From Lodderomyces elongisporus (lineage: Eukaryota; Ascomycota; Pichiomycetes; Serinales; Debaryomycetaceae), in contig NC_083677.1 of the NCBI RefSeq assembly GCF_030384665.1, positions 858,501 to 922,500 of the forward strand: 64,000 nt of DNA, in the 5' to 3' direction. The notes beneath the pieces are model-generated. The model searched no databases and was not told the origin of the DNA. It saw only the letters and a list, made by a program, of their open reading frames with translations. Of this stretch, positions 1 through 61,344 are shown one piece after another. Within the stretch, counting starts at the first letter, position 1. Each line of letters begins with the position of its first letter. Made by a program: the position numbers and the translations under genes.

Positions 1-1782
1 GTATCTGTTAGTCTCCTCCGTATCAGCAAGAACAGTCTATAGCAAAAACAATCCATTTAATTATAACCAGAGTAAGTAGAGTGCTGAAAAAAATTAGAGA
101 GAGAATAACAAAACAATCAATACAATCATTACAATAAAAGATGTTTCTTGTAGAGTGGGCCCACCTCCTAAAAACAGAATGCCAGATATTGCTCCGAGGT
201 TCAAAGTTGCATTTTGGAAAAACAAACAAACAAAAAAAAAAATAAAAGACGCAAGCGCAATTATTCAAAATTACGTCATTTTTCAAAAGAAAAATAAAAA
301 AAAAATAAAAAAGTATTCCAGAATAAGTAATTGCTACACAAATAATAATATTAATAATAATAGTAAAACAACAAGTGAGAACAAGTACAAAGAGAACCAA
401 ATAAAATAGTAGATTGGAGACATGGGGGGGGGGGGTGTTAGGTAAATTGTTAGCACCATTAAAAGTAGGAATAGAGAGAAAGAGAGAGAGATAGTGTGTG
501 TGTGCGCCGAAGATGAGGATGAAAAGAAGATGACAAAGTCCTCTTCATTGTTAACATCTAGAACTACCAGTACTACTACAAGAAACATGATCATACATGT
601 AATAACAGAAGAAATATGTTGAAGTGCTCCTGATATTGCACAATCGTGTGTGTGTGTGAAAATCTTTTCTGGTTCATCATTCAAGAGGCACAATCGTACA
701 GATTGCTAAACAATCAAATTCAAATCTTGAGCATGGCCTTGTAAGTAGATAAAAGTAAACAAAAGATGGGTTTGGCATGAGATTTTTTGCGTGTCTTTTG
801 TTTTATGTTTTATGTTTGTTGTTGTTGTTTGTTGTTGTTGTTTGTTAATGTTTATTTTTCTTTTCTAAATATAAACCACGCATGCTGCATTGTGTGCTAT
901 GACTTGGTGAAATCTCATCCTTTTGTTGTTGAATTCTTTTAAAATTTCAATTATCCAAGTATTAGCTTAGATTGCAAATTTATTCTTTACTCTCTTTTTT
1001 TTTTTGTTTTTCTTTTTTTGAAACAAAATGAGAACCTGTGCTGTGCAGCACTTTGGATGGTTCAGTTCTGAAATTTTTATTTATTTTCTGGCTCTCATCT
1101 GCATGTTACTTATAGGTTGTTGCTCTTAGTGTATTACTGGTAGTAGTATTAGTAGTAATATTTGAAGTTAGTGTTATAGTGGTGGTAGAAGTAGAAGTAG
1201 AAGCTCACCATGTATTATGTAAGCTGAAGAATTGCAAGAATAGAAAAACACGCTACCAATTGCCATTCTTTTGTTGCAATCTGCCTGAGGCTGCCAACAA
1301 ATGATGGACAAAGAGGTGGTGAAGTTGTATTGATATTTCAAAGAAAAGGTGAAATTGAATGAGATAAAAAGATAAGGCTTTATCACACATCAAAGCATAG
1401 TATAGTCAACACTGAAAACACATATATCTTTGTTGATGACTCTTTTCCTTTCAAACTAGTAACAAAGTAAGTGAGTGTGTGAGTACGTATATTTGTCTCT
1501 CAGCTTGAGATAGCACGATATCTATCTTCATTGCCAGTTTTCCAAAAATTATAAATAACCCTTGAAAAAGTCAACTTTTTCTCTGAAATCAATTTCGATT
1601 TTCTTTTTTTTTGTTTTTTCATTTTCCCCCCTCAATACCTATCAAAACCAAAGCAAAGTCTTTATTCCCACAAACACTCGCTTATTCAAAAAAAAATTGT
1701 CTTTTACTTTTTAATAATCTTTCATTTTTTATTATCAAAATAGCTTAAATTTTTTTTTTTTTCAATTTCAAAATCATTATCA
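1..1782. other. Gene-free stretch upstream of the first GPI wall-protein gene
   Basis: I see no convincing gene here. The open frames on both strands are low-complexity products of A-rich, T-rich and GT/GA-rich sequence. The segment has short GA and GT runs near 475-510, a TTG-type run near 818-845 and T-rich stretches near 990-1020 and 1600-1620. The last 250 bases, with a TATA-like element, are probably the promoter and 5' leader of the gene starting at 1783. Confidence 0.6.
1550..1557 (+). promoter_or_regulatory. TATA box candidate
   Basis: TATAAATA lies about 230 bases before the ATG at 1783, with T-rich sequence between, a common yeast promoter layout. The same octamer lies upstream of the paralogous gene at 11174. 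Confidence 0.45.
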
Positions 1783-2364
1783 ATGCAATACTCAACTGTC
1801 GCCGTCTTAGCTGCTATTGCAGGTTCAGCTCTTGGCTCTTACAACACCACTTCAACTGCTACTGATATCCATACTACTGTTATCACCATTACTTCTTGTG
1901 AAGAGAACCTGTGTACTCCAATTCCAATCACTACTGGTTTGACCACTGTTACCTCAGACCAAACTTTCTATACCACTTACTGTCCATTGCCAACCACCTC
2001 CTCCTCATGTACCGAAGAGTCAACTGTTTCCAAATTGTCAAGCACCACCATCACCATCACTTCATGTGAGGAAGACAAGTGTACTCCAGTTCCAATTACT
2101 ACTGGTTTGACCACCGTCACTGAAGGTAAAACCACCTACACCACCTACTGCCCATTGCCAAGCACCACCACCACCAACAAAGTCCACCCAACTTCATCAC
2201 CATCCAGTGTTGACGATACTTCAAAGACCTCAGTTGCGCCATACTCTTCTTCAAGCACTGGCTCAGCAGAACCTTCTTCCGCCACTATCCCAGTTGTTGA
2301 TGGTGCAGCAGCCAATGCTATTCCAATTATTGGTGGTTTGCTTGCATTGGGTGCTTTCATCTAA
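1783..2364 (+). CDS. Small GPI-anchored cell wall protein, PGA59/PGA62 type
   Basis: A 193-residue secreted protein. Residues 1-18 form a signal peptide (MQYSTVAVLAAIAGSALG). Two copies of a cysteine module follow, each reading TSCEE..C, then TTGLTTVT, then TTYCPLP. A Ser/Thr-rich stalk (about 135-170) leads to a hydrophobic C-terminal tail (NAIPIIGGLLALGAFI) typical of GPI attachment. The first module carries an extra cysteine just after TTYCPLP. Known: Candida albicans Pga59 and Pga62 are small, heavily O-mannosylated wall proteins of this design and are encoded close together. Inferred: the protein is linked to wall glucan. A close paralog begins at 11174, beyond the retrotransposon. Assigning it to PGA59 or PGA62 specifically is not possible from sequence alone. 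Confidence 0.85.
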   Translation: MQYSTVAVLAAIAGSALGSYNTTSTATDIHTTVITITSCEENLCTPIPITTGLTTVTSDQTFYTTYCPLPTTSSSCTEESTVSKLSSTTITITSCEEDKCTPVPITTGLTTVTEGKTTYTTYCPLPSTTTTNKVHPTSSPSSVDDTSKTSVAPYSSSSTGSAEPSSATIPVVDGAAANAIPIIGGLLALGAFI

Positions 2365-3280
2365 GTCGATTCCTATATCTTTATGTTTTTTCTTTTTTCT
2401 TTTATGAGGCACAACCACGATAAAGCAACATGAAGAAGTTTAAAAAAATTTGAAATAAAAAGACTTGAATAAAGAAGAATGAAGAAGGAATATGTATAAA
2501 CATGTTCTGTGGGAAATTGATGGCAATGCAAATGCCAATCCCTGGGAGATGATATACTGTATTCGCAATGCTTTTTAAACTTTTAAACGTTTTCTTTCTT
2601 TCTTTTTTTTTTTTTAATTTTTGGAGACACCTCGCTGGTTGGAGACTGATAAAATAAAAGGAAACTGTTTCGACTACTTTGACTACTTTGTCACACCCTC
2701 CCCTCCAACTTTTTTTTTACTATTATTACTAATAATTCAACAAATTTCGATCGATCGTCATAATATCAATATATTGTTTTATTTTTATTTTTATTTTCTT
2801 ATCATTTTACTTTTACTTTTCGATATAACTTTTACTTTTACTTTTCGATTCACTTTTTCGTTTTCCAAAGCGTTTCAGTCTAACTTTAAATTCAAACACT
2901 GTTATTTTTTTTTTCTTTTGTTTTTCATTCAAAGTGTGGTGAGCTTTAAAGTCTATTACAAACTTAAGCTTTATTTAGTTTGTATCTAAACTTTTCAATA
3001 TAATCTTTCTAATCTTTTATTTAACTTTATCCTTCCTTTCTTTCTTCGTTCTTTCTATTTTTTTGTTTTTGCAACCATTATTTGAGTGCTTTTCTAAACT
3101 ATATGGATTTACACTATAGATGTTTGCAACCTGATTACCACTGCAATTTGAACCATACACACACTTATTTATATAAAGTTACACAAAGGTACATAAACAC
3201 TTTTGCACACGCACACGCACAGGCACAGGCAAACCCATCCCTCCACCCTTCACTCTATCCAAGTTTCTCCGCTCCGCTTT
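2365..3280. other. Spacer between GPI gene and retrotransposon
   Basis: No gene supported. The segment holds the 3' region of the upstream gene and long T-rich and TTTTA-type runs (2700-3080). The frame at 2621-2989 is built from these runs and resembles no protein I know. The retrotransposon inserted at the end of this stretch. Confidence 0.5.
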
Positions 3281-3285
3281 CTCCG
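3281..3285. repeat. Target-site duplication, 5' copy (CTCCG)
   Basis: CTCCG directly precedes the 5' LTR and recurs directly after the 3' LTR at 8317-8321. A perfect 5-bp duplication is the usual product of Ty1- and Ty3-type integrases. Confidence 0.9.
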
Positions 3286-3739
3286 TGTCACAGTGCGACA
3301 CACACTGGACGCTCTGTGCCCTCGTTTCCGCTAAGTGAATATTTGGAAAATATTGCACGACATAGGAAACTTGAAACTTCAAACAAGATGAGTTTATATA
3401 AATAGGAACGAGAAGTGGTAAAATTAACTTATCACTATTATATAGAAATATCGGTAAAATATAGATTTTATACGGTCAACTACATTGAACACAAATCACT
3501 AGGTGAACGTGCAGAGTGTATACTCTCACGATTCTCCTTACTAGTGACTTTGTATGAGACAATTTACTCTCTTAACTTATGAGCATTGAGACCTTTATAG
3601 GTGCGATCATTGACAATTACACTTAGTTGGAATATAGCCTATCAAGTCACGAACTCAAACCGCTGGTATCGGTGAGCTACCAGCTCAAACCGATGCTCAG
3701 CAGTCGTACACTTGTTACTTGTGACAGTGCTATGCGACA
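3286..3739 (+). repeat. 5' long terminal repeat, 454 bp
   Basis: Direct repeat of 7863-8316; I found no mismatch reading the two side by side. It starts TGTCACAGTGCGACAC and ends with GCGACA, with TGTC/GACA terminal inverted bases. A strong TATA-like string (TTATATAAATAGG) lies near 3391-3405 and would drive transcription from within the LTR. A short frame here (3082-3405) is not a gene. Confidence 0.93.
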
Positions 3740-3742
3740 TAA

Positions 3743-3756
3743 TGGCGACCAGAGTG
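3743..3756 (+). other. Primer-binding-site candidate
   Basis: TGGCGACCAGAGTG starts three bases after the 5' LTR. TGG complements a tRNA CCA end, and the next five bases (CGACC) resemble the complement of the acceptor end of yeast serine tRNAs, which often end in GTCG-CCA. The tRNA identity is a guess. Confidence 0.45.
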
Positions 3757-4567
3757 AGGACCTCAAATCCTTGCAAATCATGTTGTTTGAATGATTTGAT
3801 ATGGTTACCTAATATTTCAAGTAATTGATACATTGGTTGAGGCTACTGTTAAGCAGTATTGTCGACCAGGATATTGAATGATCATGACATTTCAATACCT
3901 TGGCATTTCAACATTTGGTCAATATCATTTATGAGAAGGACCTGTGGAAGAGTAAATCTCCTATCCACGAATTAATAGCTTCACTATTGTGAACTACAGT
4001 TTAAAGGAGGAGCTACTCCTCATTGGAGAACTATGCGAGTTTAGTCCAATGGAACATAATGCATCGTAGTCATCGGGACGTATCCGAGACTACACCAGAA
4101 AATATCAAATAGCGTATACTGTCAACACTTTATGATGGAATATTCACCCATCAGTTGACAAAGGGCGAAGGTTGTAGACGTTAGACAGAGTGCAACTATA
4201 GACCGAATAGAGTCGTGTCTGCTGACTTGGCTATAGTTTGAAGGCTGTACGTGTGATAGGCATGGCGTTGAAACGAGTACCGAAGATTGCACGGGTATAG
4301 GTGGCTACCCTCAATTGGTGCAAAGATCGAGGAAAGTATTTTTAGGATAATGACCACATCCCTAATTTGGGTTTATATCATTTTTTTAAAAAAGACTTAT
4401 TACATTCTAGAAGGTAAATAAGCACCGTTAAAGCAGCGTTTAAGAAATCATCATTACTGTCTACGGACTCATCTGAGTATGATGGTAGCAGACTAAACAA
4501 ACTACACGGGTTATCGGTGAGGTAGAATTACACCAGATAAAAACGGCGGAGATGGTAACTACCGAGG
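3757..4567. other. Retrotransposon 5' leader, no ORF
   Basis: About 0.8 kb between the primer-binding site and the leader repeats has no sustained plus-strand ORF and no recognisable pol motif. Base composition is more even than the flanking yeast spacers. It may hold packaging or dimerisation signals, but I cannot point to one. Confidence 0.4.
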
Positions 4568-4640
4568 GAAAGACTAAATTGCATCTCGCAAGAAAGACTA
4601 TATAGCATCTTGAGAGAAAGACAGAATTGCATCCCGAAAG
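4568..4640 (+). repeat. Three short tandem repeats of about 25 bp in the leader
   Basis: Three imperfect copies of GAAAGAC followed by a (A/T)TTGCATC-like core lie head to tail. The last copy runs into CCCGAAAG, a string also found in each 105-bp repeat unit after the Gag-like ORF, linking the two repeat regions. Confidence 0.6.
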
Positions 4641-5037
4641 AAGCAACCAATTATTATTATGAAACTACAGTGTTTCAATAGGTCGTTCAATCATCACTTT
4701 ATTAGAGATACTGACTTAGCGCCTGCTATATAGGAGGAGTCAAATCCGAGGCACTCATTTATTGTCGACAAAATTTTTAAGATGAGGCCAGGATACACGA
4801 CTATGCGCTGGTGAAAAATTTTCACCCTACTCAACAAAAATTGTTGTCCACGACCTCTTACTCGCGTGACGAGAACTATAAGTATTCCCGAGATTGATTG
4901 AACGAAACCCTTGATAATTTGGAACAAAGGGTTTATCTACCATAAAAACATTTCACCAAAAAGTTTAACACCAAGTATATCACATATTACATTCAAGCAA
5001 AATATTATTCCAAAAACTTGAAAAACTTCTACTACAA
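4641..5037 (+). promoter_or_regulatory. Leader module A, upstream of the Gag-like ORF
   Basis: This segment aligns with 6489-6868 over roughly 300 bases. Shared landmarks in order are: GAAAC..CAGTGTTTC; a GTTCAAT block; a GGTGAA...TTCACC inverted repeat (here the perfect GGTGAAAAATTTTCACC near 4811-4827); TTGT(C/G)-rich blocks; and AACCCTT...AAGGGTT separated by 13-14 bases (near 4906-4933). The inverted repeats persist while bases around them differ, which suggests RNA structure or a duplicated regulatory element. Function unknown: translation initiation, packaging or an internal promoter are all possible. Confidence 0.6.
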
Positions 5038-6264
5038 ATGTCATCTTCAACAAAAGATTCTAAGACCTCTAATCCTACTCCAAGGAGTATCAACCCTGGT
5101 CCAAGTAAACCAGACCTTGCTGGTGTCGACTCATCTTCAATTTCCGGGCAGTCTATTTCTACCTCGGGAAGAGCCGATATGAGCGAAGGTGAAGATGAAT
5201 CTCCTGGTTTGAAAAGGACAGAAGCTCCTCAAATAAATCAGGTTGAGATTAACGAGATCTTAGACTTGAAATCTGAGATGATGATGATGCAAGAGCAGAT
5301 GAAACAAATGACTGCTATGTTTAAAGCCGCTATGATTCAAACAGTCCCGCAACTTAGCACTCCTGTACCAGCTAGGAACGATGAGGCTAACAAGGCCCAG
5401 ATTTCGGATGATAACAACAGCATAACCCTGCCAACTGACGTGCAAATGAAAGTTCATCCGGAAGAACACACATTTTCACCAGGACGTAACTTCCCTACCT
5501 CGAGGCCACACTCACTCGCTTCACCCTTGACTCACCAATCCCGTCAAAGTGGTACTCCTAGTGCTTATGGATCTGATAGATCTGTTGCATCTTACGATGG
5601 TATCCTTTACCATGGAGAAGTAGTCCATAGCGGATTCTGGGTTGAAGGCCATGAAGAAGCTTGTCAAATCATAAACGAGGCAAGACAGAGGTACCCTCAT
5701 GGGGAAGACGTCAGGGTAATTCCATACATTCGAGTCCCAGACATAGCTGTCGAAAAGGCATTCATGGCGTACTACGACAAACTCCTTGCCAAACAAGGGA
5801 GAACTCAAAATGACAATATGGCACTCGGTCAGTATGACATTGCAAAACGTGTCCCTTTGAAGTTCTCCGATGAGGAAGGTTTCATGTTCTGGTTAAAGTC
5901 GGTTTTGTGGCACAAACACACCTACGGTGTTCCTGATAAGCTCATCATTAATGAGTTAAGGAACGGAGCTAATTTGACGAAGTCAGAGTCGTTGAAGGAC
6001 ATGATTGAGATGTCATGTAAGAGTGAGGGCCCCTTTGAACAACCGGTGGTTGATTACTTACCTATCTTGGGCAATGGGGGCACTCCTCCAGAAACGAACC
6101 AAGTTACTGATGTTATGACTGCTATCCATGATGCTTTGAAAAAGAAACATAATCCTAGAGTGAAAATGACCATTATTGGTATTGCTGTCAAAAAGTATTT
6201 GAGGATCACCAATACATCTCACCTAGCACAGAAAACGACGGAAAAGGTAGCTGCCGTGGGATGA
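5038..6264 (+). CDS. Gag-like protein of the LTR element, 408 aa
   Basis: This is the only long ORF of the element. Residues 1-70 are Ser/Pro-rich and probably disordered. A Met/Gln-rich, coiled-coil-like helix lies at about 70-105 (EILDLKSEMMMMQEQMKQM). The folded-looking part is about 185-400, with aromatic-rich blocks such as FSDEEGFMFWLKSVLWHKH. There is no CCHC zinc knuckle. Assignment as Gag rests on position (first ORF after the leader), size and context, not on a recognised motif. The ORF stops inside the first copy of the 105-bp repeat, so its natural end may have been lost when the repeat arose. It starts at the first ATG after leader module A. Confidence 0.6.
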   Translation: MSSSTKDSKTSNPTPRSINPGPSKPDLAGVDSSSISGQSISTSGRADMSEGEDESPGLKRTEAPQINQVEINEILDLKSEMMMMQEQMKQMTAMFKAAMIQTVPQLSTPVPARNDEANKAQISDDNNSITLPTDVQMKVHPEEHTFSPGRNFPTSRPHSLASPLTHQSRQSGTPSAYGSDRSVASYDGILYHGEVVHSGFWVEGHEEACQIINEARQRYPHGEDVRVIPYIRVPDIAVEKAFMAYYDKLLAKQGRTQNDNMALGQYDIAKRVPLKFSDEEGFMFWLKSVLWHKHTYGVPDKLIINELRNGANLTKSESLKDMIEMSCKSEGPFEQPVVDYLPILGNGGTPPETNQVTDVMTAIHDALKKKHNPRVKMTIIGIAVKKYLRITNTSHLAQKTTEKVAAVG

Positions 6265-6522
6265 AGTTCCCGAAAGGATTTAACCAACTAATTTCATGAA
6301 ACCTCAGTGTTTCGGGTGAGAAGATACACCTTTCAGAAAACGACGGAAAAGGTAGCTGCCGTGGGACGAAGGTCCCGAAAGGATTTAACCAACTAATTTT
6401 ATGAAACCTCAGTGTTTCGGGTGAGAAGATACACCTTTCAAAAACGACGGAGAAGGTAGCTGCCGTGGGACGAAAATCCCGAAAGGATTTAACCAACTAA
6501 TTTTTTGAAACCTCAGTGTTTC
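6229..6522 (+). repeat. 105-bp tandem repeat, about 2.8 copies
   Basis: Copies start at 6229, 6334 and 6439 with a regular 105-base spacing. Each begins with a CAGAAAACGACGG-like string and contains GGTAGCTGCCGTGGGA, a CCCGAAAGG block, GAAACCTCAGTGTTTC (GAAAC/GTTTC inverted repeat) and, in the first two copies, GGTGAGAAGATACACC (GGTG/CACC inverted repeat). Copies differ by only a few bases. The Gag-like ORF ends in the first copy at a TGA that is TGGGACGA in the next two copies. Confidence 0.85.
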
Positions 6523-6868
6523 TACAGGACGTTCAATTATTAGAGTATTGGAGATGCTGACTTTCCGTTTTTAGTAGTAGGGGAGTTTTTAACCGAAGTC
6601 TTGATATTTCGTCGACGAATTCCGAACAAACAGACCCAGGCGCGCGGCTAGTTGATGGTGAAAAGCTTTTTACTTCACCCAATGTATTGTCGACGTCGAC
6701 TCGTAACCCACACGGCGCGAAAGATAATTATATCCCAACAATAATTGAACAAAACCCTTAATAATTTGGAACGAAGGGTTTTCCTAGCATTTATCCTTTC
6801 ACCAATTAAAATCCCAAATATAACATCATTATTGCATCAAAGTCCAGAATCACGCTTGAAGAAAGTGA
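6489..6868 (+). promoter_or_regulatory. Leader module B, second copy, upstream of the pol remnant
   Basis: Divergent duplicate of leader module A. It keeps GAAACCTCAGTGTTTC, the CGTTCAATTATTA block, GGTGAA...TTCACC (near 6657-6679), TTGTCGACG, and AACCCTT...AAGGGTT (near 6755-6782). It is followed by an open frame that lacks an ATG. Confidence 0.58.
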
Positions 6869-7511
6869 CAAGAGACGAGTGACAAACAACGAAGGATTGA
6901 ATTGATCACAGTTGATGACGTTCATGTATATTTGGTGTACGCAGCCAATACCCGATCCGCAAAGAAGTTAGTGAAGGATTGGGCTTCAAAAAATACCCCT
7001 GTCCCCAGTGTGTTAAAATCTACTCGAAATAAATTGAGAGCTGACAAGGTGAAGCAGCTACTCAATGAAGTAGTCAGACAGCGACGGGAGACTGAAGTAA
7101 TGCGTCGCGAAAGCGCACCTCGTCCTGACATAGATCAAACTATGCAGGATTCTCGACGAGACTTAGAGTCTAAGTCTCTGTCAACCGGGGATCATTCTCC
7201 AAACCCTTGACTCGCATTTACCATTCCTGGAACTCCAGTTTCCCAAGGAAAGCATGGAAGTAGATTTGGATTACGAATACGAAGAGCCTGACGCATCTGA
7301 TGCTAGGTTCGATCCCTCTGCACTGGCAATGAACAAGGAATTAGAAAACCTAGCCATGGAGGATGTCGTAAATCCAGATGAAGAACATAAGTCATTCTTA
7401 TCCGGAGGCGAAGGAAATAGAAATGAACCTGTTCCTACATCACATGAGAGTGGCAATATGCAGAGTCAAATATTAGAAATTAGAAAAGCATATTTATGCG
7501 AACGATCCTGA
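6869..7511 (+). pseudogene. Second coding region of the element, two overlapping frames
   Basis: One frame is open from 6869 to the TGA at 7208-7210 without an ATG near its start. A second frame, +1 relative to the first, is open from 7167 to the TGA at 7509-7511. The overlap is 44 bases. The first part is basic with a helix-like stretch (DKVKQLLNEVVRQRRETEV); the second is very acidic (DLDYEYEEPDASDARFDPS). I recognise neither as a domain. Overlap size and +1 direction match the gag-pol arrangement known in Ty1/Ty3 elements, but simple decay explains it equally well. Confidence 0.4.
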
Positions 7512-7728
7512 CACGAACGATTCAACGCAGGACGTAGATTTAGCATTGTGTGTGGACCATACTACAGTACGCGAACGTATTGGGCTCACACCGCAATATT
7601 TGGTTTTTGGATTTGAAGGTATTCATTTGTTACAAACGTTGATGAGAACATTTCCCTTATTATTCGATAGAATTTCAGGAAATTGTCGAAACCTTTTGTT
7701 GCCGCTCCGCTCATCATTTAATAGGTAA
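7477..7728 (+). pseudogene. Integrase C-terminal remnant
   Basis: A third frame, again +1 relative to the one before and overlapping it by 35 bases, is open from 7477 to the TAA at 7726-7728. It carries VRERIGLTPQYLVFGFEG, which resembles the H/S-x-G-x-(T/S)-P-x-x-L-(V/L)-(F/Y)-G motif near the end of the Ty3/gypsy integrase catalytic domain. No HHCC zinc finger or complete DDE core precedes it. This is the only trace of pol that I can see. Confidence 0.45.
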
Positions 7729-7849
7729 GTTTTTGCTTTGCAGGGGGGGAGGCCACAACGGTTATCATCATATTGCACAGTTATTTTACCTCAAATCAAT
7801 ATTTTTCCAAAGTACAACTGAAATTAGGCCGTATCTTTCATCTGACTTT

Positions 7850-7862
7850 GAAGGGGGGAAGA
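7850..7862 (+). other. Polypurine tract
   Basis: GAAGGGGGGAAGA directly abuts the 3' LTR, as expected for the plus-strand primer. A second G-run (CAGGGGGGAGG near 7741-7751) lies about 110 bases upstream and could be an older or accessory tract. Confidence 0.85.
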
Positions 7863-8316
7863 TGTCACAGTGCGACACACACTGGACGCTCTGTGCCCTC
7901 GTTTCCGCTAAGTGAATATTTGGAAAATATTGCACGACATAGGAAACTTGAAACTTCAAACAAGATGAGTTTATATAAATAGGAACGAGAAGTGGTAAAA
8001 TTAACTTATCACTATTATATAGAAATATCGGTAAAATATAGATTTTATACGGTCAACTACATTGAACACAAATCACTAGGTGAACGTGCAGAGTGTATAC
8101 TCTCACGATTCTCCTTACTAGTGACTTTGTATGAGACAATTTACTCTCTTAACTTATGAGCATTGAGACCTTTATAGGTGCGATCATTGACAATTACACT
8201 TAGTTGGAATATAGCCTATCAAGTCACGAACTCAAACCGCTGGTATCGGTGAGCTACCAGCTCAAACCGATGCTCAGCAGTCGTACACTTGTTACTTGTG
8301 ACAGTGCTATGCGACA
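7863..8316 (+). repeat. 3' long terminal repeat, 454 bp
   Basis: Same length as and apparently identical to 3286-3739. It is followed directly by the CTCCG duplication. Confidence 0.93.
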
Positions 8317-8321
8317 CTCCG
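8317..8321. repeat. Target-site duplication, 3' copy (CTCCG)
   Basis: Matches 3281-3285. Collapsing the element restores a simple empty site in a pyrimidine-rich spacer. Confidence 0.9.
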
Positions 8322-11173: not shown

Positions 11174-11860
11174 ATGCAATACTCAAAAGTCGCCGTCTTA
11201 GCTGCCGTCTCAGGTTCAGCATTCGCAGCCTACAGCAACTCCACTGTCACTGACATCCAAACCACCGTTGTCACCATCACCTCATGTGAGGAAGACAAGT
11301 GCTCAACTGTTCCAGTCACCACTGGTTTGACCACCGTCACTGAATGGGACACCACCTACACCACCTACTGCCCATTGTCCACCGTTACTGAACAAGAAAG
11401 CACCACCGTCACCATCACCTCATGTGAAGAAGACAAGTGCTCAACTGTCCCAGTTGTTACCGGTTTGACCACCGTCACTGAAGGTGAAACCATCTACACC
11501 ACCTACTTCCCATTGACTGCTGAGACCAAGGCCCCACAAGAATCAAAGGCACCTTCATCCTCTGCTCCAGCTGTTGCTCCAGCTCCAGAATCAACCACCA
11601 CCACCGCTAAGGCTGGTGAATCATCTGCTGCTGCTCCAGCTCCATCAACTGTTGCTGAAGAATCAAAGGCTCCAGCTGCTTCTACTGAAGCCAACACTGA
11701 AGCCCCAGCTGCTACCACCCCAACCACCGTTGCTGCTCAATCTGAATCATCAGCTGTTGCTGCTGAATCATCCCCAGCTGTCTCTGCTGTTGAGGGTGGT
11801 GCTGCTTCAAACGCCATCCCAGTTGTTGCTGGTTTGTTGGCTTTGGGTGCTTTCATCTAA
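11174..11860 (+). CDS. PGA62: GPI-anchored cell wall protein, PGA59/PGA62 type
   Basis: A 228-residue paralog of the protein at 1783: the same signal peptide pattern (MQYSKVAVLAAVSGSAFA), two cysteine modules (TSCEEDKCSTVPV, TTGLTTVTE), then a longer Ala/Pro/Ser/Glu-rich stalk (about 115-210) and the GPI tail NAIPVVAGLLALGAFI. The second module has TTYFPL where every other copy of this module type has TTYC, so a cysteine has become phenylalanine (TTC for TGC at 11507-11509). Coding sequence uses a narrow codon set (GCT, CCA, ACC, GAA), suggesting high expression. The symbol follows the two-module, long-stalk layout of Candida Pga62 and is tentative. Expected location is the cell wall. Confidence 0.8.
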   Translation: MQYSKVAVLAAVSGSAFAAYSNSTVTDIQTTVVTITSCEEDKCSTVPVTTGLTTVTEWDTTYTTYCPLSTVTEQESTTVTITSCEEDKCSTVPVVTGLTTVTEGETIYTTYFPLTAETKAPQESKAPSSSAPAVAPAPESTTTTAKAGESSAAAPAPSTVAEESKAPAASTEANTEAPAATTPTTVAAQSESSAVAAESSPAVSAVEGGAASNAIPVVAGLLALGAFI

Positions 11861-59808: not shown

Positions 59809-61344
59809 ATGAGACTTTTCAACTTTGTCTTGACAATTGCTTGTGCTTCGGCATTACAAATACCATTCACCGCCAACAAACCTAAAGCTGCTAATATTGT
59901 ACAAGAAGATTCTATCGCTCCGGCATACCCTTTCAATGAGGTTGATTTGAGCTCATTGAATATTCATCAACAACTTCATTTACAGAATGAATGGACCAAA
60001 TATGAACATCAATTAGGCTTAGAGCAAATGCTCGGCCAATATAACAAATTTAAAAAGTTGTTTGAGAAACCCAAAACAGATATGACATATTCAATTACAT
60101 CCGATCCTGAAAGTACGCCAGAAATACTTGGTTTTGACTCAGTAAAGCAAATATCTGGGTATTTTCATATCAAGGAGACACACAAGAAATTCTTTTATTG
60201 GTTCTTTGAAAGTAGAAACGACCCAGCAAACGACCCATTGATTCTCTGGCTTAGCGGAGGCCCAGGATGCTCGTCCAACATTGGATTGGCTATGGAACTT
60301 GGTCCAAGTTGGATCAATGCTACTATCCAGCCTGATTTCAACCCATACTCTTGGAACTCCAACGCAAGTTTATTATTCTTGGACCAGCCAGTAGCTGTTG
60401 GCTTTTCCGACGGTGATGATGACGAGATTCCCTTTAGTACCGAGCAAGCTGCAATCGACTTTGGCAAATTTGTTGAATTATTCCGTAACCAATACCCAGA
60501 ATATGCCAAGTTGGATTTCCACATTGCTGGCGAGTCTTATGCCGGTCATTATATTCCCAGTTTTGCATCTACAATAGTCAATAATGGAGTACCTTTGAAA
60601 TCAGTTTTGATTGGTAATGGGATTACTGACTTTGTGGTGCAAATTGGCCAAGTGGCAAATATGGGTTGTGGCCAAGGTGGTATTGGTCAAATTTATACTG
60701 ATGAAGAGTGCAGCAGCTATGAGCAGTACTACAAAAATTTTGTTCCGTTTGGTGAATTATGCTATAAATTTCCTAATCCCGTCACTTGTTTTGTTGCCTT
60801 GTTGGCAACACCAAATGCTCCAGACAAAGGTGACTTAAATCCATATGATTCAAGAGTCAAGTGTGGGGACAATCCATTATGTTACGAGCAGATTGGATAC
60901 ATTAATGAATATTTCAATTTGCCACAAGTTGAAAAAGCACTTCTTGGAAATGTTCCAGAAAAGAATTTTACCTCGTGCAACTCAAAAGTTGGTCAAAAAT
61001 TTATATTTGAAACAATGAGACCATACCAACAATACGTTTCAGAGTTATTGGACAAGGAAATACCAGTCTTGATATACGTCGGTGATAAGGATTTGGTTTG
61101 TGATTGGCTCGGTAATTTAGCTTGGGTCAATAAGCTTGATTATTCAGGCCACGAGAACTTCAATGCTACAAAATTTGCGCCATGGTTTACCACTGAAGGT
61201 ATTCAGGCAGGTGAGGTCAAAAACTACAAGCATTTCACCTATTTACGAATTTATGAATCCGGTCACATGGTTCCATTAGACCAGCCAAAGAATGCATTGA
61301 GTATGGTTAATCAATGGGTCAGTGGTAATTATGCATTATCTTAG
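59809..61344 (+). CDS. Serine carboxypeptidase, carboxypeptidase Y family, copy 2
   Basis: A 511-residue paralog of the upstream gene. Signal peptide at about 1-15 (RLFNFVLTIACASA). Triad Ser (GESYAGHY, near 242), Asp (IYVGDKDLVCDWLGN, near 426) and His (ESGHMVPLDQP, near 486) are intact. The substrate block reads LWLSGGPGCSS, with Ser for the Asn of LNGGPGCSS, which is usual in the family and takes part in substrate C-terminal carboxylate binding in CPY. The region around it is otherwise nearly identical in DNA to copy 1. The difference could shift substrate preference or activity. Probably vacuolar or secreted. Confidence 0.9.
   Translation: MRLFNFVLTIACASALQIPFTANKPKAANIVQEDSIAPAYPFNEVDLSSLNIHQQLHLQNEWTKYEHQLGLEQMLGQYNKFKKLFEKPKTDMTYSITSDPESTPEILGFDSVKQISGYFHIKETHKKFFYWFFESRNDPANDPLILWLSGGPGCSSNIGLAMELGPSWINATIQPDFNPYSWNSNASLLFLDQPVAVGFSDGDDDEIPFSTEQAAIDFGKFVELFRNQYPEYAKLDFHIAGESYAGHYIPSFASTIVNNGVPLKSVLIGNGITDFVVQIGQVANMGCGQGGIGQIYTDEECSSYEQYYKNFVPFGELCYKFPNPVTCFVALLATPNAPDKGDLNPYDSRVKCGDNPLCYEQIGYINEYFNLPQVEKALLGNVPEKNFTSCNSKVGQKFIFETMRPYQQYVSELLDKEIPVLIYVGDKDLVCDWLGNLAWVNKLDYSGHENFNATKFAPWFTTEGIQAGEVKNYKHFTYLRIYESGHMVPLDQPKNALSMVNQWVSGNYALS

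Follow-up and report, generated by a model that had tools for sequence, protein, structure and literature searches.

A retrotransposon of Lodderomyces elongisporus with two leader modules, most likely inherited from two parental elements of the same genome

A stretch of 64,000 nucleotides (nt) from Lodderomyces elongisporus (the window; assembly GCF_030384665.1, contig NC_083677.1, positions 858,501 to 922,500 of the forward strand) includes a retrotransposon bounded by long terminal repeats (LTRs), in which two related leader modules, A and B, precede a truncated gag gene and a pol remnant, respectively. This element is almost certainly a chimera of two parents found in the same genome, the full-length Ty3/gypsy element F1 and a non-autonomous element of the L056 type, and the chimera was very probably made by copying inside a particle. 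The doubling of the leader is most likely a by-product of how such elements are copied. The best explanation overall, and a likely one, is a particle-made chimera combined with a single leader that acts as a folded cis-acting RNA.

The genome searched was the 16.1-Mb assembly of L. elongisporus in 8 contigs. DNA searches scored the best candidates only; copy counts are lower bounds, and remote copies may be missed. The window element has identical 454-bp LTRs and is flanked by the target duplication CTCCG at 3281-3285 and 8317-8321. Its parts, in window coordinates, are as follows.

3286..3739, plus strand: 5' LTR, 454 bp, a mosaic of L056 type (informative positions 20 and 63) and F1 type (171, 177, 181, 222, 223 and 431)
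3740..4640, plus strand: long untranslated leader of F1 type, with 17 ATGs and a 24-nt tandem repeat at its end (4568-4642)
4641..5037, plus strand: leader module A, of the F1 kind, immediately 5' of the gag ATG at 5038
5038..6264, plus strand: truncated gag, 408 amino acids (aa)
6231..6232, plus strand: chimera junction, F1 through 6231 and L056 from 6232, with AAAC at 6233-6236 common to both
6229..6522, plus strand: 105-nt tandem repeat, 2.8 copies, L056-derived from 6232 on
6489..6868, plus strand: leader module B, from L056
6869..7862, plus strand: pol remnants, then polypurine tract; pol start 6912-7468, pol end 7543-7650 and 7684 on match L051 (a stretch of an F1 copy)
7863..8316, plus strand: 3' LTR, same sequence as the 5' LTR

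The element is not autonomous by gene content, as gag stops after 408 aa and pol is present as remnants only. The first 398 residues of its Gag are identical to F1 Gag of L031 (586 aa) and are followed by 10 different residues and a stop; the zinc-knuckle part is lacking.

F1 is an 8.65-kb Ty3/gypsy element with a single leader, A, and has gag (586 aa) followed by pol in the +1 frame. Pfam matches in L031 and L051, which are neighbouring parts of a single copy flanked on both sides by ACAAC, gave the pol order aspartic protease, reverse transcriptase, RNase H and integrase. F1 Gag had no match in Pfam; its sequence is 100% identical to that of a protein assigned to L. elongisporus. Full-length module A was found at no fewer than 21 places in the genome. 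Twenty of these were fetched as 6-kb stretches and comprised 18 copies of the F1 kind and two of the chimera, namely the window element (L034) and a copy on contig C4 (L039). The 21st place (C2:889526) lies within an LTR pair spanning 8654 bp, hence there are at least 19 copies of F1. In the LTR search, in which the best 40 of 117 candidates were scored, 16 complete F1 pairs were recovered, 14 of them spanning 8654 bp, one 8769 bp and one 7641 bp. Among the best 40 matches to the last 2500 nt of F1 pol, 18 were full-length at 100% (rounded), one was full-length at 98% (in a sister element, L055) and one was partial at 100% (the 7641-bp copy).

L056, located on C1, is a 3.53-kb non-autonomous element that consists of an LTR, an untranslated leader, 105-nt repeats, leader B, a pol remnant and an LTR. 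It has no module A and no match to gag, and a word present once per 105-nt unit occurs in it five times. Full-length module B at 100% was found in at least three places, which are the window, the C4 copy and L056.

The C4 copy showed no difference from F1 (copy L033) over 3349-6231 and none from L056 over 6232-7862. Its LTR is the same as that of L056 at positions 1-170 and as that of F1 at positions 64-454, which places the change of parent between positions 63 and 171; thus, no base of the C4 copy is left that is not supplied by either parent. At 3305, 3348 and 6232, all 18 fetched F1 copies have another base. Since the parents are 94% alike over the first 1.1 kb, LTR included, the parts can be assigned to them without doubt. 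The LTR pair of the C4 copy is identical to that of the window copy, and the two copies differ at 3740 and 7091 only. At the first of these, immediately 3' of the 5' LTR, the window copy and the F1 copy L038 have T; the C4 copy and the other 17 fetched F1 copies have G. The target duplications, CTCCG for the window copy and AACAG for the C4 copy, differ and indicate two separate insertions of the chimera.

The sequence at the join is CAGGAAAC in F1, TCAAAAAC in the L056 unit that aligns from the 3' end, and CAGAAAAC in the chimera. With the repeat unit aligned in this way, the letters common to both parents are AAAC only. Two other L056 units read CAGAAAAC, so that CAG could be common as well if the repeat slipped. 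As is characteristic of a template switch, each part is identical or nearly identical to a different extant parent, and the homology at the join is short or absent. In addition, the 3' parent supplied U3 and the 5' parent supplied R-U5.

Both parents, the breakpoint, the LTR mosaic and the two insertions are direct observations, and they would be accounted for if RNAs of F1 and of the L056 type had served as templates within a single particle. Reverse transcriptase would first copy U3 and the 3' half of L056, switch at 6231/6232 to the F1 RNA, and then copy gag, leader A and the 5' region; with one leader contributed by each parent, the product would have two. An LTR composed of U3 of L056 and R-U5 of F1 is expected of the reverse-transcription cycle on an RNA with an F1 5' end and an L056 3' end. 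Co-packaging of the RNAs and one internal template switch thus explain all features by a single event.

The U3/R-U5 mosaic is equally expected, after one transposition cycle, of a hybrid produced at the DNA level by recombination or end joining of F1 and L056-type insertions, and the genome has many copies of related elements; both points speak for such a hybrid. However, with AAAC alone in common, the breakpoint has no long homology for homologous recombination, and a DNA-level join requires two events rather than one. Furthermore, no unprocessed hybrid was seen among the seven elements compared at both LTRs (window, C4, one F1, L052, L053, L054 and L056), each of which has an identical pair, most F1 copies being outside this comparison. 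A join at the DNA level is thus unlikely, and a template switch inside a particle is preferred. If the chimera did arise during reverse transcription, the mosaic alone puts the U3/R boundary between LTR positions 63 and 171. As a natural case of a full-length and a non-autonomous retrotransposon having recombined, the chimera is unusually clean, and both of its parents are extant in the genome.

In one F1 copy (L036:3944-4065), the polypurine tract and the first 110 bases of U3 are inserted near the gag/pol overlap, which, judging by sequence, looks like another template jump.

An earlier note on this DNA had pointed out that 4641-5037 and 6489-6868 share an ordered set of blocks, and all five blocks are legible in both modules. 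The local alignment of A and B scored 118, as compared with 20.5 on average (sd 2.5) and 33 at most for 1000 dinucleotide shuffles of B, and blastn gave 67% over 336 nt with an E value of 1e-16. The modules are thus homologous. The region is A+T-rich (58% in 4001-8000), which would favour chance or low-complexity similarity, but the comparison with shuffled sequence, one of the two tests that the earlier note had named, came out clearly in favour of the alignment and leaves chance next to no probability. The described positions are also correct, as module A adjoins the gag ATG at 5038 and module B precedes the remnant at 6869-7862. The start of module B overlaps the end of the third unit of the 105-nt repeat, which is lacking from F1 and from module A.

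The proposal that the doubling is a designed layout, i.e. a second promoter, an internal entry or re-initiation element for the pol remnant, or a doubled packaging signal, was not supported. Both leaders of the chimera are inherited, one from each of its single-leader parents. In F1 (L031), the leader lies directly before gag. The sister element L055, which lies ~13.5 kb from an end of contig C5, has its own gag, directly preceded by a B-type leader with 105-nt repeats. Hence, leaders A and B are the ordinary pre-gag leaders of two lineages, and module B is not a designed second start. It meets a pol remnant because L056 is without gag and most of pol, an arrangement that the chimera inherited. 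The open frame 6869-7210 has no ATG of its own before the one at 7100, and ATGs in another frame come earlier, at 6915, 6924 and 7065. There is thus no usable pol start after module B, and a pol start driven by it was rejected for want of an in-frame ATG before 7100.

Selection of a doubled module that is useful in itself, as a doubled packaging signal or a second promoter, would be in keeping with the intact state of both modules in both chimera copies. However, the two copies found among the matches listed differ at only two bases, which leaves too little time to reveal selection, and each parent spread with one leader; the lack of a usable pol start 3' of module B speaks against it as well. 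This explanation is therefore highly improbable. Given the single-leader parents and the position of the leader directly before gag in F1 and L055, a designed two-leader layout is rejected or at least weakened. A packaging role for each single leader is possible.

The gag of L055 is ~75% like that of F1 at the DNA level, but the last 2500 nt of pol in this element (G000:C5:19053-21552) are 98% identical to F1; from these sequences, the L055 element looks recombinant too.

Each leader probably forms a folded RNA. An alignment was made of four full leaders (A, B and those of L055 and L054), with pairwise identities of 60% to 92%, and its consensus fold by RNAalifold had an energy of -28.0 kcal/mol. 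None of 300 column shuffles that preserved the gap pattern and conservation class was as low (mean -15.5, sd 3.6, lowest -27.1). The core structure includes hairpin 1 (GAAAC/GUUUC), a long-range helix (GUUCAAU/AUUGAAC), in which AGGnCG and UCAAUyA pair with UrAUUGA and UCCU or UCUA, and hairpin 4 (AAACCCUU/AAGGGUUU). Together with a palindrome, these are located in the window as follows.

4661..4676, plus strand: module A, hairpin 1 GAAAC/GTTTC
4680..4693, plus strand: module A, long-range helix, 5' arm AGGUCGUUCAAUCA
4762..4771, plus strand: module A, palindrome TTGTCGACAA, candidate dimerisation site
4895..4903, plus strand: module A, long-range helix, 3' arm, with an outer segment at 4935-4938
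4905..4934, plus strand: module A, hairpin 4 AAACCCUU/AAGGGUUU
6507..6522, plus strand: module B, hairpin 1
6526..6539, plus strand: module B, long-range helix, 5' arm
6609..6618, plus strand: module B, palindrome TCGTCGACGA
6742..6750, plus strand: module B, long-range helix, 3' arm, with an outer segment at 6782-6785
6752..6781, plus strand: module B, hairpin 4

In the four leaders, 100 of 100 cells of the core structure are paired. Changes on both sides were observed in 4 of the 25 core pairs, three in the long-range helix and one in hairpin 4, a number reached by 17 of 500 shuffles. When the 3' letters were shuffled 500 times, the covariation score of the core was reached twice, and slid versions gave no both-side pairs at all. 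A 10-nt palindrome around GTCGAC is present in all four leaders, with a compensatory change in B; such a palindrome arose anywhere in 4 of 2000 column shuffles.

The five blocks can be re-read in these terms. The GAAAC/GTTTC block is a conserved hairpin with no variation in the four leaders, and the AACCCTT/AAGGGTT block is a conserved hairpin with a compensatory change in L055. The GTTCAAT block is indeed present in both modules, but the earlier note saw one arm only; its partner, ATTGAAC, lies ~210 nt downstream and completes the long-range helix. GGTGAA...TTCACC forms a local hairpin in each of the four segments folded (A, B, L055 and L053), but in differing registers, and it is not part of the four-sequence consensus. 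The TTGTCGAC block proved to be the core of the 10-nt palindrome, kept in all four aligned leaders. Of the view that the modules behave as RNA stems, the homology and the covariation across further genomic copies were thus borne out, compensatory pairs being present in a set of four sequences only, but a designed layout was not supported.

Several results weigh against the fold. The covariation rests on four leaders, two of them 92% alike, further pair types in the core were reached by 236 of 500 shuffles and are unremarkable, and the palindrome was tested only after having been noticed. In single-sequence folds, the mean pair probability of the long-range helix was 0.96 (A), 0.99 (B), 0.38 (L055) and 0.01 (L054), and that of its outer segment was at most 0.02 in all four. 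For hairpin 1, the value was 0.99 in A and did not exceed 0.24 in the other three leaders; for hairpin 4, it was 0.38 (A), 0.54 (B), 0.53 (L055) and 0.03 (L054). As a whole, module A was more stable than its shuffles (z -2.13), and module B was no better (z +0.78). In the gene-poor relatives L052 and L053, the long-range helix has an A-C mismatch, hairpin 4 is cut by a deletion, and the minimum-energy folds are without the long-range helix. As elements of this type spread without it, the part comprising the long-range helix and hairpin 4 is not essential for mobility. The leader fold is thus a candidate RNA structure resting on four sequences.

The L054 leader (L054:1882-2305, minus strand) follows that of L055 up to hairpin 4 and B thereafter, which indicates that it is itself a mosaic; the breakpoint in the hairpin leaves a G-U pair.

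Rfam gave no match to the leader at the gathering score and one sub-threshold match at 6107-6201, outside both modules; assignment to a known RNA family was thus rejected. A covariance model built from the four leaders gave 14 matches in 8 sources, seven of them full leaders and the rest weak, including one elsewhere in the window (60958-61033, E 0.08). One 105-nt unit did not fold clearly better than shuffles (z -0.60).

As to what a single leader may do, a folded cis-acting RNA domain for packaging or dimerisation of genomic RNA has about an even chance of being the right description. In the relatives L052 and L053 (2.4-2.6 kb), the LTRs, the 5' untranslated region and most of the leader are present, as is the final stretch 5' of the 3' LTR (from 7591); neither gag nor the remainder of pol has a match in them. 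The L052 type has at least 13 matching places in the genome. Nine such elements were fetched; four (L022-L025) have four different 5-bp duplications, and five (L026-L030) have one common pair of flanks and no duplication. On contig C5 (G000:C5:1388552-1424049), L026-L030 and a sixth place form a row of six gag-less, nearly pol-less elements spaced 6983-7021 bases apart, and the common flanks and regular spacing indicate one duplicated segment of ~7 kb. Because the gene-less elements moved without proteins of their own, the parts that they retained include what is needed in cis, and mobilisation in trans would explain why they have kept the leader. The retained sequence comprises the leader alongside everything else kept, which limits the inference. 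Packaging or dimerisation is ranked first because gene-less relatives keep the leader and because of the 5' cis-requirements of Ty1 and Ty3 and the Ty3 palindrome (see below).

A role mainly in translation, by internal entry or ribosome shunt past upstream ATGs to gag, is ranked second and is possible, though clearly less probable. The F1-type leader has 20 ATGs between LTR and gag (17 before module A and 3 inside), none of them from 4804 to 5037, and that of L055 has 27. An A-rich, G-poor tract lies 5' of gag in both the F1 type (47 A and 4 G of 96) and L055 (45 A and 5 G of 99). Splicing is not an obvious way out, as 3286-5037 includes no GTATGT, GTAAGT, TACTAAC or CTAAC, with GTATGA present twice and GTACGT once. 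However, the leader is kept in elements that have no gag to translate, and the last ATG of L055, at 1661, is nearer to its gag (1782). In shunting, a short open reading frame ends just before the base of the helix; no short frame in the window leader has its stop immediately 5' of the helix base (4680). The packaging and translation roles can coexist. In a more far-reaching and rather improbable version, the leader would be a novel RNA domain, belonging to CUG-clade Ty3/gypsy elements and serving both ribosome passage past ~20 ATGs and packaging or dimerisation, with gene-less relatives hitch-hiking and heterodimers generating chimeras; the Gag of the chimera, which ends before the zinc knuckle, might in turn interfere with the parent. 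The analysis also suggests that these yeast elements have a structured untranslated leader of ~1.3 kb, with packaging, dimerisation and initiation as candidate roles.

Two other Ty3/gypsy-like families in the genome have tandem arrays between LTR and gag, of 55 nt x 9.9 (L057:1441-1986) and 63 nt x 6.7 (L058:1233-1660), the units of which contain small hairpins. A 60-nt stretch of the former (z +0.96) and a 63-nt stretch of the latter (z -0.72) did not fold clearly better than shuffles, and the leader covariance model had no match in either family at E up to 1. In the window element, TGGCGACCAGAG lies directly 3' of the 5' LTR, at the position of a candidate tRNA primer binding site; no tRNA gene to match it as primer was found in the 64-kb window. 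The element is flanked by two genes for similar Ser/Thr-rich proteins (1783-2364 and 11174-11860) with a common TITSCEE repeat, which we take to resemble cell-wall proteins.

Ylt1-like elements in L. elongisporus are reported in the available part of PMC3248453. In the literature searched, largely without subscription journals, no report of this chimera or leader was found. F1 resembles Ty3/gypsy elements in its LTRs, 5-bp target duplication, gag followed by pol in the +1 frame, and the order protease-reverse transcriptase-RNase H-integrase. It differs from Ty3 in that ~1.3 kb with 20 ATGs separate LTR and gag in the F1-type element. Given proteins in trans, Ty3 can do without nt 429-4979, which suggests a short 5' cis-acting part, and Ty1 requires 380 nt at the 5' end (both as given in the accessible text of PMC4974528). 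A palindrome near the 5' end has been proposed to start dimerisation of Ty3 RNA (PMC11381356, as far as available). The leader is similar to the 5' RNA domains of Ty1 and Ty3, as excerpted from PMC5454406 and PMC11381356, in long-range pairing near the 5' end (Ty1) and in short palindromes proposed for dimerisation; in contrast, its structure here rests on covariation and folding only.

Tca1 of Candida albicans is described in the accessible portion of PMC7175516 as a 5.6-kb non-autonomous LTR element without open reading frames. It is likewise a yeast element with internal sequence but no genes, whereas the elements of 2.4-2.6 kb reported here coexist with full-length relatives of the same LTR and leader. 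Hybrid Ty1/2 elements are known in yeast (PMC7175516, same portion), and recombinant centromeric retrotransposons of grasses are prolific, co-packaging and template switching being one possible route to them according to the part of PMC4079200 at hand. As far as these sources go, they have in common with the window element that related elements recombine into mobile chimeras. What sets the present case apart is that a single assembly contains both parents, that every base of one copy is accounted for, and that the leader was doubled by the join. Chimera formation of this kind is thus already known, and this example of it is new and very clean.

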